DNA from: Acidimicrobiales bacterium
GTDB taxonomy: Bacteria > Actinomycetota > Acidimicrobiia > Acidimicrobiales > MedAcidi-G1
Direction: 5' to 3'
DNA length: 64,000 nt
Assembly: GCA_022452035.1 (NCBI GenBank)
Contig: JAKURV010000001.1
Location: 1 to 64,000 of the forward strand
In this document: one piece after another, positions 32,888 to 40,633 of the stretch
How positions within the stretch are numbered: position 1 is the first letter of the stretch
Layout of the letters: each line of letters starts with the position of its first letter
The notes under the pieces: generated by a model
Told to the model about the DNA's origin: nothing
Seen by the model: the letters and a program-made list of their open reading frames with translations, nothing else
Database searches by the model: none
Translations under genes and position numbers: made by a program

Positions 32888-33988
32888 CTATAGGTAGCGC
32901 CGGGGAGGTCGGGCACTCAGCGAGCAGAGGACCTCCCACGGGATCAGTCCAATGGCCTCGCCGACCTCGGCAGCACCGATCATCTCGTCGCCCTGCGCGC
33001 CGAGCAGGATTACCTCGTCGCCCAGGGCCACGGTGTCGTCGACCTCCACCATCAGGGCATCCATCGACACGACGCCCCGGAGCGGCCGTCGGCGACCCCC
33101 GACCAGTGCCTCACCAACCAAACCCCAGCGGCGAGGAAGGCCGTCGGCATAGCCCATGGGCACGGTTGCTAGCCGCGTCTCGTCCCCGCTTACCCATTGG
33201 TGCCCGTAGCCCACGCCCTCCCCGGCGTCCACCGTCTGCAGGTGGGTCACCTGGCTGCGGATGGCCATGGCCTGGCGCAACCCGAGCGGGGCGCAGTGGG
33301 GGCGGACCTCCGTGGAGGGCTCCACCCCGTAGACGCCGATACCAACCCGCACCAGGTTCCGTCGGGTGTCCGGGCGGCTGACCGTGGCCGCTGTGTTAGC
33401 CATGTGCACGATCGCCGGTCGGATCCCAGCCGACGCTAGGTCGTCCAGAGCAAGGTCGAAGCGCCGAACCTGCCGGTCGGTGAACGGGTCGTCGGGGACG
33501 TCGGCCACCGAGCAGTGGGTGAACACCCCTTCCAGGCCAAGGCCCAGGTCCTGGACCAGCCGGGCGGTGGTCAACGCCTCGGCGGGTCGGACCCCCACCC
33601 GATGCATGCCAGTGTCGACCTTGAGGTGGACCGGTGCCCCGGGATCGGCCACCGCGGCGAAGGCCTTGATCCCAGCCTCCGTGTAGACGGTGGGTCGAAC
33701 CCCACCCAGCATCACCACCTCGGCCATCTCTTCCTGTCGTGGCTCGGACAGCAACAGGATCGGGGCATCGAGCCCGCCGCCCCGCAGGGCGGCTGCCTCT
33801 TCCACCAGAGCTACAGCCAACCAAGTGGCACCAGCCCCGAGGGCCGCCTGGGCCACCGGCAGGGCACCATGGCCGTAGCCGTCGGCCTTGACCACCGCGC
33901 ACATCTCGGCCGGGGCTACTAGGTCGCGGAAGACAGCCACGTTGTAGGCCACCGCCTCAAGGTCCACCGTGACCCAGGTAGGGCGCAT
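32888..33988 (-). CDS. alr: Alanine racemase
   Basis: Alr makes D-alanine for peptidoglycan. The 366 residues have the PLP lysine in AVVKADGYGHG, HLKVDTGMHRVG, HMANTAAT, the PLP-contact RVGIGVYG, and the second catalytic base Tyr in GVGYGHQW. The usual VSMDQ motif reads VSMDAL. The ATG shares one base with the nnrDE stop (TGATG), so translation is coupled. Confidence 0.96.
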   Translation of the reverse strand: MRPTWVTVDLEAVAYNVAVFRDLVAPAEMCAVVKADGYGHGALPVAQAALGAGATWLAVALVEEAAALRGGGLDAPILLLSEPRQEEMAEVVMLGGVRPTVYTEAGIKAFAAVADPGAPVHLKVDTGMHRVGVRPAEALTTARLVQDLGLGLEGVFTHCSVADVPDDPFTDRQVRRFDLALDDLASAGIRPAIVHMANTAATVSRPDTRRNLVRVGIGVYGVEPSTEVRPHCAPLGLRQAMAIRSQVTHLQTVDAGEGVGYGHQWVSGDETRLATVPMGYADGLPRRWGLVGEALVGGRRRPLRGVVSMDALMVEVDDTVALGDEVILLGAQGDEMIGAAEVGEAIGLIPWEVLCSLSARPPRRYL

Positions 33989-35343
33989 CAGGCCACCGTT
34001 TGTCCGGAACCGTCCACGCCCAAAGCCACCAGAACGTCGACCAGCCTCGCTGATAGGTCCCCGGCCACTACCCCGGTGGCTGGGAGGCCGTCCAGGAGGC
34101 GTCCGTGGACGTGGGCAGCGGCAGCAGCGGCCTCTAGGGCACCAGCCCCCCGGGCCAGGAACGCTCCCAGGATGCCAGCCAGCACGTCACCGGATCCTGC
34201 GGTGGCCAGGCGGCGGTCACCCGCTGCGGCCAGCAGGACTCGTCCGTCTGGGTGGGCCACCACGGTGGTCGGACCTTTGAGCAGAACCACTGAACCCGTC
34301 CGTCCGGCCAGGCTGCGGACGGCCCCTATCCGGTCGGAACCCGGAGACTGCTCGGCCAGGCGTTCGAACTCGCCGTCGTGTGGGGTGAGGACGGCCTGGG
34401 GACCTGGTCGGATCGTCGTGCCGGCTAGGGCGGTTAGGGCATCACCGTCCACGACCAGCGGACGGTTCACCCCGTCCACCAGACGCCGGACCCCCTCCGC
34501 CACCTCCTCGGAGGTCCCCAGCCCGGGACCCACCACCAGGGCGGCAAAGCGCTCTAGGTCCGCATGGTCTGGGCCCGGAACGCTGTCGACCGGGTAGCGA
34601 ACCACCTCTACGGGGGCCTCGGCCTCACCCCACCCCGGGGTCGACAGGCGTACGTATCCGGCGCCCGCCCGTTGCGCGGCCTCGGCAGCTAGTGCGGCTG
34701 CCCCCTCCATTCCCACCGACCCGGCCACGACCCAGCAGGCGTTCGCCCACTTGTGGGTGTCGTCCGGCCGGTTGGGCACTAAACGGGCTACGTCGTCGTC
34801 GTCTACCAGGTGGGTCCGGGCCGACGAGGTGTCCAGGCCGATGTCGGCCACCTCCACCCGTCCAGCCAACCCCGGCCCGTCGGCAAACAGCAGGCCTGGT
34901 TTCAGGGCGGTGAAGGTGACGGTGCGCTGGGCCGACGTCGGTGCGCCCCGGGCCTCACCGGTCAGGCCGTCCACCCCTGACGGGAGATCTACGGCTAGCA
35001 CCGGAGCGTCGGTAGCCGGCGCTTCGTAGGACCGGCCCAGGCCGGTGCCGTAGGCGGCATCCACCACCAGATCGGCCACCGGTAAGCGACCGGGGGCATC
35101 AGCAGCGTCGACCACCGTGGTACGTACCCCCCGTCGCTCTAGGCGGGCCGCCGCTACCCGACCGTCGGCGCCGTTGGAACCCTTGCCGGCCACCACCACC
35201 ACGCGTCGCCCGTACGCCCCACCCATCAGATTCAGCGCGGCCCGGGCGACGGCGGCCCCGGCCCGGTCCACTAGGACCTCTGCCGATTCGGACGCCGCGG
35301 CGTCCGCGACCGCCATCTCGTCTGGTGTTAGGACGGGGATCAA
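33988..35343 (-). CDS. Bifunctional NAD(P)HX epimerase/dehydratase
   Basis: This repairs hydrated NAD(P)H. The N-terminal YjeF-type epimerase domain covers about 1-190, with LTPDEMAVADAA at the start, VVVAGKGSNGADGRVAAARL and the VDAAYGTGLGR and VDLPSGVDG segments. The C-terminal dehydratase is ribokinase-like, with NACWVVAGSVGMEGAAALAA, VVGPGLG, TPHDGEFERL, LLKGPTTVV and the GSGDVLAG motif. I placed the start at a TTG (35343), giving 451 residues; it has no clear ribosome binding site and is uncertain by a few codons. It lies 31 bases after acpS. Confidence 0.9.
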   Translation of the reverse strand: MIPVLTPDEMAVADAAASESAEVLVDRAGAAVARAALNLMGGAYGRRVVVVAGKGSNGADGRVAAARLERRGVRTTVVDAADAPGRLPVADLVVDAAYGTGLGRSYEAPATDAPVLAVDLPSGVDGLTGEARGAPTSAQRTVTFTALKPGLLFADGPGLAGRVEVADIGLDTSSARTHLVDDDDVARLVPNRPDDTHKWANACWVVAGSVGMEGAAALAAEAAQRAGAGYVRLSTPGWGEAEAPVEVVRYPVDSVPGPDHADLERFAALVVGPGLGTSEEVAEGVRRLVDGVNRPLVVDGDALTALAGTTIRPGPQAVLTPHDGEFERLAEQSPGSDRIGAVRSLAGRTGSVVLLKGPTTVVAHPDGRVLLAAAGDRRLATAGSGDVLAGILGAFLARGAGALEAAAAAAHVHGRLLDGLPATGVVAGDLSARLVDVLVALGVDGSGQTVA

Positions 35344-35374
35344 CGGAAGGCCCGGATCGGCCGGTGTCCGCCGG

Positions 35375-35740
35375 TCACAGCGCCACGACGGTGGCCTGGG
35401 CCAGCCGGTCACTGTGGCTCAGGGTGACCAGCCACCGCGTCACCCCGGCCCGTCGGGCCACCTCCAGCGCCTTACCGTGCAAAACCAGCGAGGGAGGGCC
35501 CAGGTCATCCCGCACTACCTCAATGTCGTACATGGCCATACCCCCCAGCCCCAGTCCCAGGGCCTTCAGCGCGGCCTCCTTGGCAGCGAAGCGGACCGCG
35601 TAGCGGCCCGCTGGGTCTACGTGGGCGTCAGCCCGGGCCCGCTCGTCGGGCCGAAACAGGCGATCGCGCAACGAAGGGGTTCGCTCCAACGACCGTCGGA
35701 AGCGGTCCACGTCCACCAGGTCCACCCCGATCCCGATCAC
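35375..35740 (-). CDS. acpS: Holo-[acyl-carrier-protein] synthase
   Basis: AcpS transfers phosphopantetheine from CoA to acyl carrier protein. The 121 residues are typical. GVDLVDVDRFRR at the start carries the magnesium Asp, and RYAVRFAAKEAALKALG holds the catalytic Glu and Lys. LVTLSHSDRLAQATVVA closes the fold. It follows the GlmS-like gene by 19 bases. Confidence 0.95.
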   Translation of the reverse strand: MIGIGVDLVDVDRFRRSLERTPSLRDRLFRPDERARADAHVDPAGRYAVRFAAKEAALKALGLGLGGMAMYDIEVVRDDLGPPSLVLHGKALEVARRAGVTRWLVTLSHSDRLAQATVVAL

Positions 35741-35759: not shown

Positions 35760-38700
35760 TCAGCCGCGGAGCCGATCGGCGATGGCTAGCACCGGATCGA
35801 TCAGCAGGTCGTCGACGGGTAGGGAGGCCAGCAGGTCATCCCGTAGTTCCGGTTCCGTCTCGCACACAACGTCGCGCACGGCGCCGTAGCGATTGTCGTA
35901 GCCCTGGAGCACCCCGCGGAGGACTTCGGGGTCCAGGCGGTCGCGCAGCGACACGTGGAGAAGTGTCAGGCCGACTGTCTCTCGGTCCTTTACCTCGGGG
36001 ACCAGGACGATGGTCCGGTCGTCGCGGGCGCCCCGGGTCACCAGGACGTCACGCTCCCGGGCCACACGGTGCTTGGTTCCCCGCAGCGCTGGGTCCCGGT
36101 CGGTCCGCGACGGGATCCCAGTGGACACACCTCCCCGGTCGACAATGGCCAACGTAGGCGCCGGACCATCCAATCCGTCCACCCGGTACCGGGTGAAGCC
36201 GACCACGTCGGCCACCGCCGGATCGAGGGCCACCAGCACTCGCAGTGTTCGGTAGCTGAGCGAATCACGGGGGGCGCCGGCGTCTAGGACGGCCCGGGCC
36301 AGGCGGGCCTCCAGCAGCGTCTCGTCAGTCCGCGAGATACCCACCGTCACCGTTTTGGCCTGGTGCTTGATGGCGTCGATGGGACGGGTCAGCTCCTCGA
36401 CGGCCACCGTCAGGGCACCGGCCAGGTCGTCGAGCACCAGGGCCGGCGTACCGACCCGGCCGAACTCCAACTGGTAGGACTCCAGCGGCACATCCCCGAG
36501 GGCAAAGCGGAACAGGGTCGACAGGCGTACGGCAGTCGACGCCTCCAGGTGACCGTTCAGCCGACCATTGCGGAGCTCGTCGGAGAACGCTGTGGCTGCC
36601 AACCGCAGTTCGTCACGCAGGGCCCCATCTACCGAGGCTCCCGGCTCGGCCTCCGAGGATAGGAGGTACACCGCCTCCCGCTCGATGGCCGCGTGAGCCT
36701 CCCGTAGGGGCTGGGCCTGGGCGTCTATGGCCCGGGCCGCCTCGTAACCGAACAGGTGCCCAACCATGGTCGAGAGGACGAAGGACAGTCGGGGATGGAC
36801 CACTGGAACCAACACCACGTCCAGCGCCTCCGAGAACCGCGACGAGCCAGCATCGGCCACCACCACCGGGGCCGCCCGGTGAGCCCGGTAGATGGCCACC
36901 TCCTTGGCCACGTCGTCGGCCGTCGAGCCAACCAGCCCTGTGGCGCACACCAGGATCAACGGCTCGGCCGACAGGTCGATGTGCTTCTTATCCTCCGTGG
37001 CGTCGGCCGAAATCGATTTGTAGCAGAGCTCCGACAACTTGATCCGGATCTCCCGGGCAGCCACCAGGTTGGGTCCGCTACCCACCACGGCCCAGTGCCG
37101 GCGAGCCGGTGCGTGGCGATCAGCTATCTCGGCAATCCGGTCTCGCTGGGCCAGCACCTCGCCCATGGCCTCGGGCAGGTCACGCAGGCCGGCCAGCACC
37201 CCGGCACGGTCCGGCGCGCCGCCGACCCCGACTGCGTCGGCCACCGCTGCGGCTAACAGCACCCCGGCCACCGCCTGGGCATAGAAGGCCTTCGTGGAGG
37301 CCACGCTCATCTCCACGTCACGACCGTCAGACGTGTACAGCACCCCGTCGGACCGGTCCACTAGGTCGCTGTTTCGCCGGTTGACGATGGCGACCACCCG
37401 AGCCCTCCGGGCCCGGACCAGATCCACCGTGCGGTTCGTGTCGGTGGTGGTGCCGGACTGGCTGATGGCTACCACCAGGGTGTCGGACATGTCGGGCACC
37501 AGGCCAAAGCCCGAAAGCTCGGTGGCCGGCAGGTCGTCCACCTCGATGCCTGTTCCGGTCAACTCCTCGGCCAGTGAACGGGCCACCGATCCGCCGGCTA
37601 CCGCGGCGGTGCCCTGTCCGATAACCAGTACCCGCCGGATGGCGCCAGCGGCCAGTTCGGCCCGTAGGTCGTCGCACAGCACCTCGGACCCCAGACGAAC
37701 CCCAAGGGTGCCGTCGCCGTCTGCCACTAGGCGACCCCGCAGGGTGGAACGGACCGAGTCTGGCGACTCGCTGATCTCCTTGATCAGGAAGTGGGGGTGG
37801 TCCCCCCGGTCGATGTCCCGGGTGGTGACCTCAGCCCGAGACAGGTCGGCTGACGTGACCGGCAAGTTTCGGCCGTCGTATGACCGACGGGTGATGCCAT
37901 CCACGGAACCGGCACTGGCGGCGTCCAACTCCACGATCTGTCCCCGACTAGCCCCCGGGTCGTCGGGGTCGGCCGGTGTCTCGCCGTCCATCCTTAGGTA
38001 GTCGGCGGTCAACTCCACCACCCCGTAAGGCTCGCTGGCTACCACGAAGGTGTCCTCAGCCAGACCGACGAAGAGACCCTGACCACTCCCCCGCAGGGAT
38101 AACAACAGGCGGTCCGGGGCATCGCCGGTAGCCATGCCGATGGCAACCGAACCCTCGAAGGCATTCACCGTGCGCCGGAAGGCCTCCAGCCGTTCACGGC
38201 CAGCTGCCAGGTGGGCGGCGCACAGCGCGGGAACCACCTTGGCGTCCGTAGTGATCTCCGGAGCCAGGCTCAACCCCTCGGATGCGGCCAGGTCGGCATG
38301 GTTGTCCACGTCACCGTTCTGGACGACGGTGACCAGCGGCACCGTCTCCCCGTCGGCCCGGGTGGAGTCCACCGGGTGGGCGTTGGGTTCCGAGATGAGG
38401 CCCACGCTGGCCCAACGCGTGTGTCCCAGTAGGGAACCCTGCACGGCCGGGGCGGCCAGCGCCCGGGCTAGGAGCCTGTCGGCGACCAGGGCGGACCGAA
38501 GGACGGCCGTGTTGTCGCCCAGCTCGCCGATCTCGGCCGAGGCCTTCACCACGAATGCCAGGCCGCCACCGTCCAGCACCCGGACGCTGCCCGAGCGATG
38601 GAGTGGATCGGCCGAACGGGCAACCACCTCCGGATCGTGCTGGTCGATCCCATGGTTCCAAACCGTGATCTGCAGGCCGGCCGAGTCACGACCCCGGACC

Positions 38701-39173
38701 TCCAACCGGTCGAGAGCCGAGAGGGCCTGCTGGGCGGAAAGTAAGACGGCGAGACCGGCGTCACTGGGAACCGGCCGTTCCTGTCGTAGGGAGGTCACCC
38801 CAGCAAACGCGCCCAAGCGGTCTCGCGACACGGTCCAGAGGACGTCCCGGACGCGGACCAGGGCAGCGTTGGCCGCCTCCACGTCTGGAGATCCGGCGAC
38901 CGCGGCCTCCAGGCCGGCTAGGTGAGCCGGAACCGGTGCCAGGACCTCGTTGATCCGGCTGACCAGCGTGGGATCCCGATCCAGGGCCAGCAGCCCTGGA
39001 ACCCCGCACAGCAGCCGATCGGCCTCGCCCAGCAGGTCGGCGGCTTCCCCCAGGAGGTCCGGCTCGACCCGGGCCAGCAGGTCGACGGCCCCGACCAGCG
39101 GGGCCGTAATCCGCTCGGCCGTGGGGACCTTCCGGTCGGACGGTCGGCGGAGGACCGCGATGATGCCGCACAT
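35760..39173 (-). CDS. Oversized GlmS-like glutamine-fructose-6-phosphate aminotransferase, 1137 residues
   Basis: The ATG at 39173 gives MCGIIAV, so processing would expose the catalytic Cys. Normal GlmS has about 610 residues. Glutaminase landmarks are RGRDSAG (160-166), GHTRW (250-254) and NGDVDNH (286-292). In ordinary GlmS the RGxDSAG motif is near residue 30, so about 130 mostly helical residues are inserted. SIS1 (about 505-640) has ISQSGTTTDT and EMSVASTKAF (E621). SIS2 (about 685-830) has KHIDLSAEP (H731). IKHQAKTVTVG (936-945), the match to the usual C-terminal lysine motif, lies after another insertion of about 90 residues and is followed by about 190 more of unknown fold. It sits after glmM, so GlcN-6-P synthesis is the natural role; the extra parts may be regulatory. 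Confidence 0.82.
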   Translation of the reverse strand: MCGIIAVLRRPSDRKVPTAERITAPLVGAVDLLARVEPDLLGEAADLLGEADRLLCGVPGLLALDRDPTLVSRINEVLAPVPAHLAGLEAAVAGSPDVEAANAALVRVRDVLWTVSRDRLGAFAGVTSLRQERPVPSDAGLAVLLSAQQALSALDRLEVRGRDSAGLQITVWNHGIDQHDPEVVARSADPLHRSGSVRVLDGGGLAFVVKASAEIGELGDNTAVLRSALVADRLLARALAAPAVQGSLLGHTRWASVGLISEPNAHPVDSTRADGETVPLVTVVQNGDVDNHADLAASEGLSLAPEITTDAKVVPALCAAHLAAGRERLEAFRRTVNAFEGSVAIGMATGDAPDRLLLSLRGSGQGLFVGLAEDTFVVASEPYGVVELTADYLRMDGETPADPDDPGASRGQIVELDAASAGSVDGITRRSYDGRNLPVTSADLSRAEVTTRDIDRGDHPHFLIKEISESPDSVRSTLRGRLVADGDGTLGVRLGSEVLCDDLRAELAAGAIRRVLVIGQGTAAVAGGSVARSLAEELTGTGIEVDDLPATELSGFGLVPDMSDTLVVAISQSGTTTDTNRTVDLVRARRARVVAIVNRRNSDLVDRSDGVLYTSDGRDVEMSVASTKAFYAQAVAGVLLAAAVADAVGVGGAPDRAGVLAGLRDLPEAMGEVLAQRDRIAEIADRHAPARRHWAVVGSGPNLVAAREIRIKLSELCYKSISADATEDKKHIDLSAEPLILVCATGLVGSTADDVAKEVAIYRAHRAAPVVVADAGSSRFSEALDVVLVPVVHPRLSFVLSTMVGHLFGYEAARAIDAQAQPLREAHAAIEREAVYLLSSEAEPGASVDGALRDELRLAATAFSDELRNGRLNGHLEASTAVRLSTLFRFALGDVPLESYQLEFGRVGTPALVLDDLAGALTVAVEELTRPIDAIKHQAKTVTVGISRTDETLLEARLARAVLDAGAPRDSLSYRTLRVLVALDPAVADVVGFTRYRVDGLDGPAPTLAIVDRGGVSTGIPSRTDRDPALRGTKHRVARERDVLVTRGARDDRTIVLVPEVKDRETVGLTLLHVSLRDRLDPEVLRGVLQGYDNRYGAVRDVVCETEPELRDDLLASLPVDDLLIDPVLAIADRLRG

Positions 39174-39246
39174 GTCCTTGTGACTGCCCTTTCGCTCCAT
39201 CGCACCGACCGGCGGTCGGTGCACAGACTCTAGGAATTCTACGGGT

Positions 39247-40593
39247 TCAGATCCGGTCGGCCCGCTCGACAGCAGCCACCAAGCGGTCGGCCACCTCCGA
39301 GGCCTCAGCGGTGTCGTACGCCTCCACCATCACCCGGACGACTGGCTCGGTACCCGACGGTCGGACTAGCACCCGCCCGGTATCACCCAGTTCGGCCTCG
39401 GCGAGAGCCAGGTCGTCGGCCACCGCGGCCACCACCGCGGCCCCGTCCGAAGAAACGGGAACGGCGTGGAGGACCTGAGGGGCCCGGACCATCAGCTCCG
39501 TCGCCCGTTCACCCAGGGTCCGGCCACTGCGCCGGGCGGCATCCAGGGCCTGGATCCCGGTTAGCAGGCCGTCGCCAGTGGTCGCCAGGTCGCGAAAGAC
39601 CACATGACCCGACTGCTCGCCGCCCAGCACCCAGCCGTTGGTCTCTAGGGCCTCCAGCACGTAACGGTCGCCAACCGCCGTCTCGTGGACAGTGAGGCCG
39701 TGGTCGACCAGGGTCCGACGCAGCCCCAGGTTGGCCATCACAGTCACCACTACGGTGTCGCCGGGCAGGGCACCGCGCTGGTACCGGTCGATGGCACAGA
39801 TTGCCAGCAGGTCATCGCCGTCGAGCAGGGAACCGTCATCGGCCACGGCAAGCACCCGGTCCCCGTCACCGTCGAAGGCCAGACCGGCATCGGCCCCCGC
39901 CTCCACCACGGCGGCCCGTAGGTCTCCCGGGTGGTTAGACCCGCAGTCCTCGTTGATGTTGCGACCGTTTGGACAGGCGTGGAGCACAGCTACATCTGCC
40001 CCTAGGCGGGTCAGAACGTCGGCGGCGAACGCTGACGTGGCGCCGTTGGCACAGTCCACAACCAGGGTTAGGCCGGAAAGAGACCCGTTGCCGGCCGAGG
40101 AAGCCACCGCGTCGGCCCAGGGGGCTGCCCCATCCGGGTCGTCGGACCAGCTCGACGACCCGCCTCCTCCGTCCCGTCGCGGCTCGACATCCCATGCCGC
40201 CTGGACGGCGGACTGCACGACGTCGTCCAGCTTCCGACCGCCGGCGGAGAACAGCTTCACCCCGTTGTCGTACCAGGGGTTGTGGGAAGCCGAGACCACG
40301 GCACCGGCCACCCCGTCAGCGGCCGCCACGTGGGCTACGGCCGGTGTGGGCGCCACGCCGAGGGACAACACCTGGAGCCCACCTTCGGATAGCCCCTCAG
40401 CCAGGGCCAGCGACAACCCGGGACCCGACTCGCGGGTATCGCGGCCGATAACCACCCGGTCGGCACCCAGGAGCGGGGCGGCGGCCAGGCCGAGGGCGCG
40501 GACCGACGGTTCGTCGAGTCGGGTGCCGGCACGGGCGCGAACGCCGTCGGTACCGAATCGGAGGCCCGCCGGAGCGACCTCGGGCTCTGCCAT
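39247..40593 (-). CDS. glmM: Phosphoglucosamine mutase
   Basis: GlmM interconverts glucosamine-6-phosphate and glucosamine-1-phosphate for UDP-GlcNAc. From the ATG at 40593 the protein has 448 residues. It shows LRFGTDGVRA, the active serine loop AVVSASHNPWYDNGVKLF, the metal site AFDGDGDRVLAV, GGEQSGHVV and the phosphate loop VLVRPSGTEPVVRVM. It lies between rpsI and the GlmS-like gene on the same strand. Confidence 0.96.
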   Translation of the reverse strand: MAEPEVAPAGLRFGTDGVRARAGTRLDEPSVRALGLAAAPLLGADRVVIGRDTRESGPGLSLALAEGLSEGGLQVLSLGVAPTPAVAHVAAADGVAGAVVSASHNPWYDNGVKLFSAGGRKLDDVVQSAVQAAWDVEPRRDGGGGSSSWSDDPDGAAPWADAVASSAGNGSLSGLTLVVDCANGATSAFAADVLTRLGADVAVLHACPNGRNINEDCGSNHPGDLRAAVVEAGADAGLAFDGDGDRVLAVADDGSLLDGDDLLAICAIDRYQRGALPGDTVVVTVMANLGLRRTLVDHGLTVHETAVGDRYVLEALETNGWVLGGEQSGHVVFRDLATTGDGLLTGIQALDAARRSGRTLGERATELMVRAPQVLHAVPVSSDGAAVVAAVADDLALAEAELGDTGRVLVRPSGTEPVVRVMVEAYDTAEASEVADRLVAAVERADRI

Positions 40594-40633
40594 CGCCGCA
40601 GCGTAGGAGCCGGACCGGTGGTCCAACCGTCGC

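Follow-up and report, generated by a model that had tools for sequence, protein, structure and literature searches.

A giant GlmS of the Acidimicrobiia with a conserved, predicted PAS/GAF-like domain beyond its catalytic tail

Results

The window analysed here, the whole 64,000-nucleotide stretch at positions 1 to 64,000 of contig JAKURV010000001.1 (Acidimicrobiales bacterium, GCA_022452035.1), carries on its minus strand a gene run of rplM, rpsI, glmM, a giant glmS, acpS, nnr and alr, in which the neighbours were named by inspection. The giant glmS (35760..39173) encodes 1137 residues, nearly twice the usual length of a GlmS, an assignment resting on the open reading frame, NCBIfam, homologues and a genome search. 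As the first-pass annotation had it, glmM (39247..40626) lies directly upstream; downstream follow acpS-like (35375..35740), nnr-like (33988..35412) and alr-like (32888..33988) genes, all on the minus strand, and this context is conserved among giants. The frame is open over 35760..39224 (minus strand) with no internal stops, and the ATG at 39171-39173 gives the encoded N-terminus MCGIIAV. Both this start and the RGxDSAG motif at residue 160 had been read correctly in the first pass, the motif being RGRDSAG at residues 160-166. Upstream of the ATG, GCGAAAGGG is a possible ribosome-binding site. No glmS ribozyme or other RNA was found upstream of the gene, and a promoter and terminator scan at it yielded nothing useful.

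The best NCBIfam match of the giant is GlmS, scoring 219-242 bits where the cut-offs stand at 381-418; membership of the equivalog family TIGR01135 (219 bits, curated cut-off 418) is not reached. Pfam recognized GATase_6 and one SIS domain, and phmmer against the PDB returned E. coli GlmS and human GFAT-1. The protein has at least 80 full-length homologues at 54-77% identity and thus is not a chance product. All conservation counts below refer to an alignment of 112 distinct giants.

The catalytic core is that of a GlmS. Residues 1-9 (39147..39173, minus strand) form the first strand of the glutaminase domain in the whole-protein model and bear the N-terminal nucleophile Cys2, which is kept in 110 of the 112 giants and falls in gaps in the other two. 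The rest of the glutaminase domain (residues 138-413; 37935..38762, minus strand; GATase_6) includes the conserved R253, W254, H266, N286, G287 and D310; the E. coli glutamine-site residues R73, W74, H86, N98, G99 and D123, together with the Cys, are matched in all 112 giants bar at most two that are gapped or ambiguous. The first SIS domain (residues 456-650; 37224..37808, minus strand), with the motifs SQSGTTT and EMSVASTK, was placed by Pfam and conservation, and the second (residues 651-820; 36714..37223, minus strand), with K712, E715 and H731, by fold alignment and conservation. These two domains show 66% and 67% mean identity, with 58/195 and 46/170 positions near-invariant, respectively, and the equivalents of S347, Q348, S349, T352, K485, E488, H504 and K603 are present in 112/112 giants. 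Residue equivalence between the giant and E. coli runs Cys2 = C1, E715 = E488, H731 = H504 and K940 = K603; E621 and H731 do lie where first reported, but E621 corresponds to E. coli E396 and the isomerisation glutamate is E715. The clear exceptions are the E. coli S303 position, a phosphate ligand in that enzyme, which is Ala in all giants, and H77, which is V/I in most. With the glutaminase, phosphosugar and E488/H504/K603 positions otherwise kept, the different ammonia or sugar specificity raised as an option in the first pass is not suggested.

A whole-protein model built with 57 homologues (pLDDT 89, pTM 0.79) shows the GlmS/GFAT fold: a glutaminase is joined to two SIS domains, and the tail covers the active site. 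It matches human GFAT-1 (Z ~43) and E. coli GlmS (1jxa; Z 41.8 over 596 residues), and giant residues 2..945 align on E. coli 1..608, with 945 paired to 608; this range places K940 on K603. The protein is very probably the glucosamine-6-phosphate synthase of its source organism, catalysis being inferred in the absence of activity data.

The catalytic tail, residues 927-946 (ELTRPIDAIKHQAKTVTVGI; 36336..36395, minus strand; K940 codon 36354-36356), has 94% mean identity with 13/20 positions near-invariant, and K940 is found in 112/112 giants; residues 941-947 were modelled with low confidence. As first noted, the lysine motif (QAKTVTV, with K940) is displaced: 191 residues follow it, whereas every GlmS compared here ends at the tail. 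The giant therefore does not satisfy the architecture criterion of the GlmS/GFAT family, that the tail be the C-terminus; in the predicted model, its tail forms an internal loop, with a helical insert before it and a C-terminal domain after it. This mid-insert (residues 821-926; 36396..36713, minus strand) separates the second SIS domain from the tail in the whole-protein model and has 49% mean identity with 4/106 positions near-invariant. An N-insert (residues 10-137; 38763..39146, minus strand; model helices at 19-129) separates glutaminase strand 1 from the RGxDSAG helix and is the least conserved add-on (34% mean identity, 5/128 near-invariant). Pfam scans gave no family for the N-insert and no consistent family for the mid-insert, and a PDB sequence search with profiles of both inserts and the C-terminal extension gave only weak, apparently chance matches. 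The N- and mid-inserts are looser helical elements of fairly constant length. The three added segments described at the outset are thus real, but two smaller inserts, at ~176-200 and 401-413, had been missed. A finding that the extra segments are unconserved filler would have counted against a special role for them; this objection does not hold for the mid-insert and least of all for the C-terminal extension, and is only partly answered by the N-insert, where length and helical character are kept but sequence is conserved weakly.

The C-terminal extension (residues 947-1137; 35763..36335, minus strand) was delimited by modelling, fold search and conservation, and contains the motifs TRYR, LRGTK, GxxDxR and VPExK. 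Its 56% mean identity and 26/191 near-invariant positions indicate a real domain. Modelled alone (pLDDT 94, pTM 0.89), it has the order H-H-H-b-b-h-h-b-b-b followed by five helices, and in this prediction it looks like a PAS/GAF-like five-stranded antiparallel sandwich with flanking helices. The fold matches, to GAF domains and the ACT/PAS part of Mycobacterium L-GDH180, are weak (Foldseek best E 1.2e-3). With VIA, the top match is L-GDH180 (7jsr; Z 8.8 over 163 residues, to L-GDH 174-357 in the N-terminal ACT/PAS segment), the next scores Z 7.1, and GAF/PAS domains (3ci6, 5w10, fRMsr) score Z 6-7; the latter have a five-stranded antiparallel sheet with helices like that predicted for the extension, which matches none of their sequence families and has extra C-terminal helices. 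Indeed, no PAS/GAF family match was obtained for the extension against Pfam or PDB sequences. PAS/GAF domains are often missed by sequence search. Homology with the L-GDH PAS segment was considered and found no support (hhalign probability 0.2%), and without a sequence relation in profile comparison we claim a resemblance of fold only. A viral fold library gave weak GAF/kinase-like matches and no others, and the extension was not found on plasmids. Its only match in the phylum outside giant GlmS, a methylmalonyl-CoA mutase-like protein named by inspection (E 4.4e-4), was taken as chance. The near-invariant polar residues R995, Y996, R1023, K1034, D1051 and R1053 might surround a binding site for an anionic ligand, a guess from conservation.

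The first pass had left it to a search for an ordinary glmS to decide between replacement and a new role, and none was found elsewhere in the source genome, which is 96.1% complete. The TIGR01135 search there returned the giant and three weak places in two other open reading frames, covering the glutaminase part only; from score and coverage, we read these two as other amidotransferases. A standard GlmS above cut-off occurs in 159 of the 296 genomes sampled from the class, and the giant C-terminal domain in 113, with no overlap. The lack of any ordinary glmS found in the genome and mutual exclusion across the class argue for replacement rather than a second role, and they bear out the earlier inference that the giant is the GlmS of this organism. 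Outside the class sample, two genomes hold both forms: G335, listed at 5% contamination, with a standard gene in the canonical slot and the giant elsewhere, and G654, in which the standard GlmS is a partial reading frame. Both may be mixed bins. One genome of the same order (G181, 98% complete) was found to have neither form, possibly as an amino-sugar auxotroph or through an assembly gap.

The two forms share a chromosomal position. Where the flanks of a locus in the class are long enough, the giant nearly always lies between glmM and acpS/nnr, and the standard glmS of the class is mostly in the same slot (L087-L090, L156-L166, L167-L186); within one family (f61), the slot holds the giant in L150 and the standard gene in L154. 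The giant is outside the usual glmM slot in G335 (L151) and in f91, a family of another class (L147-L149), of which a relative, G429 (L153), has a standard glmS in the slot; the f91 arrangement suggests transfer. On a tree of five neighbour genes, made by a quick method and with odd composition in some rows, GlmS state needs about five changes, at least four of them forced by well-supported branches. In the core alignment, all giants form one clade on a very long stem, with a mean identity of 64% within the giants, 51% within the standards and 29% (24-33%) between the two. A single giant clade combined with changes of state at the locus is most simply read as one origin followed by repeated exchange with the standard enzyme, as far as sequence comparison can tell; the direction is not resolved.

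A natural deletion may have separated the extension from the core. In G242 (family f14; L228 7404-10514), a giant of ~47% identity ends in GISRR directly after the tail, at residue 948, and nnr starts within ~15 bases of its end, with no remnant of the extension between and no acpS detected at the locus. Should the assembly be correct, a catalytic core that keeps its tail can exist without the extension; G242 is one fragmented draft genome, and the deletion may be an assembly fault. G271 and some other genomes, in which a contig end cuts the gene short, were not taken as evidence for deletion.

Discussion

GlmS is essential and serves as a drug target, and both its length and its end are textbook matter; its product, glucosamine-6-phosphate, is the first amino sugar of the cell wall. 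It is strongly supported that the giant works like a GlmS, with activity inferred, but without the equivalog score and without the free tail of the family. With bacterial GlmS (E. coli 1jxa/2j6h; TIGR01135) it shares the domain order, the Cys nucleophile, the phosphosugar motifs, E488/H504/K603, the tail AK(S/T)VTV and an adjacent glmM. It differs in a core identity of only ~29% to standards of the phylum and 26-27% to E. coli (by fold match), in two large inserts, in S303A, and in a 191-residue domain that leaves the tail away from the C-terminus. Its best fold match, human GFAT-1 (6svq and others), is an allosterically regulated glucosamine-6-phosphate synthase, likewise enlarged relative to E. 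coli GlmS; unlike the giant, GFAT-1 (681 aa) ends at its tail, and it is inhibited by UDP-GlcNAc without an extra C-terminal domain (PMC7000685). This feedback inhibition, found only in the eukaryotic enzyme, is the main stated distinction from prokaryotic GlmS (PMC7000685), and a tag at either end of GFAT-1 interferes with catalysis (PMC8041777, PMC7000685). A conserved domain after the tail in a widespread bacterial clade thus breaks the rule of the free end and may break that of no feedback. L-GDH180, too, acts in nitrogen metabolism and carries added sensor-type domains, but its catalytic core is unrelated and hhalign showed no sequence relation. Several relatives of the source organism have a large glutamate dehydrogenase (PF05088), for which no match was found in the source genome.

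In standard GlmS, the Schiff-base lysine sits on a mobile C-terminal tail that shuts the sugar site and takes part in forming the ammonia channel. The E. coli tail is pinned by Arg331-Glu608 (PMC8041777); the equivalent of position 608 in the giant is Gly945, and the chain continues. A tail in mid-chain before a conserved, sensor-like domain suggests regulation within the enzyme, and we lean towards a GlmS that replaces the standard one and controls its tail allosterically from within, regulation being inferred without ligand data. Its deep clade of enlarged enzymes displaced the standard form, or gave way to it, several times at one locus. As a synthase, it would use Cys2 of the Ntn glutaminase to release ammonia from glutamine, and the two SIS domains would isomerise and aminate fructose-6-phosphate through Glu715, His731 and Lys940, the Schiff-base lysine. 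The C-terminal domain, a few residues from the tail, would set its freedom according to a bound small molecule or partner, and changed freedom would change activity, giving the add-ons an allosteric role. That the sensor domain gates the tail in this way is a tentative proposal on which we do not insist, with neither ligand nor regulation data behind it. More speculative still, a PAS/GAF-like sensor joined to the tail might gate both ring opening and ammonia channelling, as an allosteric design independent of eukaryotic GFAT and exchangeable between lineages with the standard enzyme.

The add-ons could instead be structural, supporting a larger oligomer or a stabilised dimer without binding a ligand or regulating the enzyme. 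We consider this unlikely but not negligible, as the N- and mid-inserts are helical, are moderately conserved in sequence and better in length, and such segments often form interfaces, whereas a compact, predicted five-stranded PAS/GAF-like domain with many near-invariant polar residues is more than a pure brace needs. It is rather improbable that the add-ons are docking sites for a partner protein, such as GlmM receiving glucosamine-6-phosphate or a GlmR-like regulator. A report on Bacillus proposes GlmR as a stimulator of GlmS (PMC7525490), and glmM adjoins nearly all giants; yet standard glmS is equally adjacent to glmM, the f91 giants lie away from it, and GlmR, present in 60/113 giant genomes and 106/183 others, does not track the giant. 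A separate idea, that the giant replaces GlmR, was rejected on those counts. Finally, the sub-threshold scores, S303 to Ala, H77 to Val and an altered KKHID loop would fit a related enzyme with a different sugar as substrate or free ammonia as its nitrogen source, but this is very hard to credit for the only GlmS-like enzyme found in the genome, which occupies the glmS slot and keeps every main catalytic residue of the two domains.

What is new here is the either/or at one locus, the single clade, the internal-loop tail, the PAS/GAF-like domain after it and the apparent natural deletion. We found no description of the giant architecture in the open PMC literature (closed-access papers lay outside the search), and GlmS goes unmentioned in the main text of the Acidimicrobiia marker paper. 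The giant allows control of the tail to be tested directly, aided by the apparent natural variant without the domain, and the strict either/or at one locus offers a clean case of essential-gene replacement.

A link between the giant and loss of GlmU was also considered and discarded; GlmU absence follows lineage, not GlmS type. At 1e-30, GlmU (TIGR01173) had no match in the source genome or in four f1 relatives (G169, G187, G211, G246), nor in f7 and some f2 genomes; the best TIGR01173 match in the source genome has E 1.3e-16 and lies near a galE-like gene (L233).

Annotation is a further pitfall, as curated GlmS models put the giant far under their cut-offs. Acidimicrobiia-type giants also occur in records under other titles (L033, L064, L069, L074, L076, L035 and L011; Bifidobacterium breve, Ferrithrix thermotolerans, Thermoanaerobacterales, Acidobacteria and Dehalococcoidia), which are probably wrong, unless the bins are mixed.
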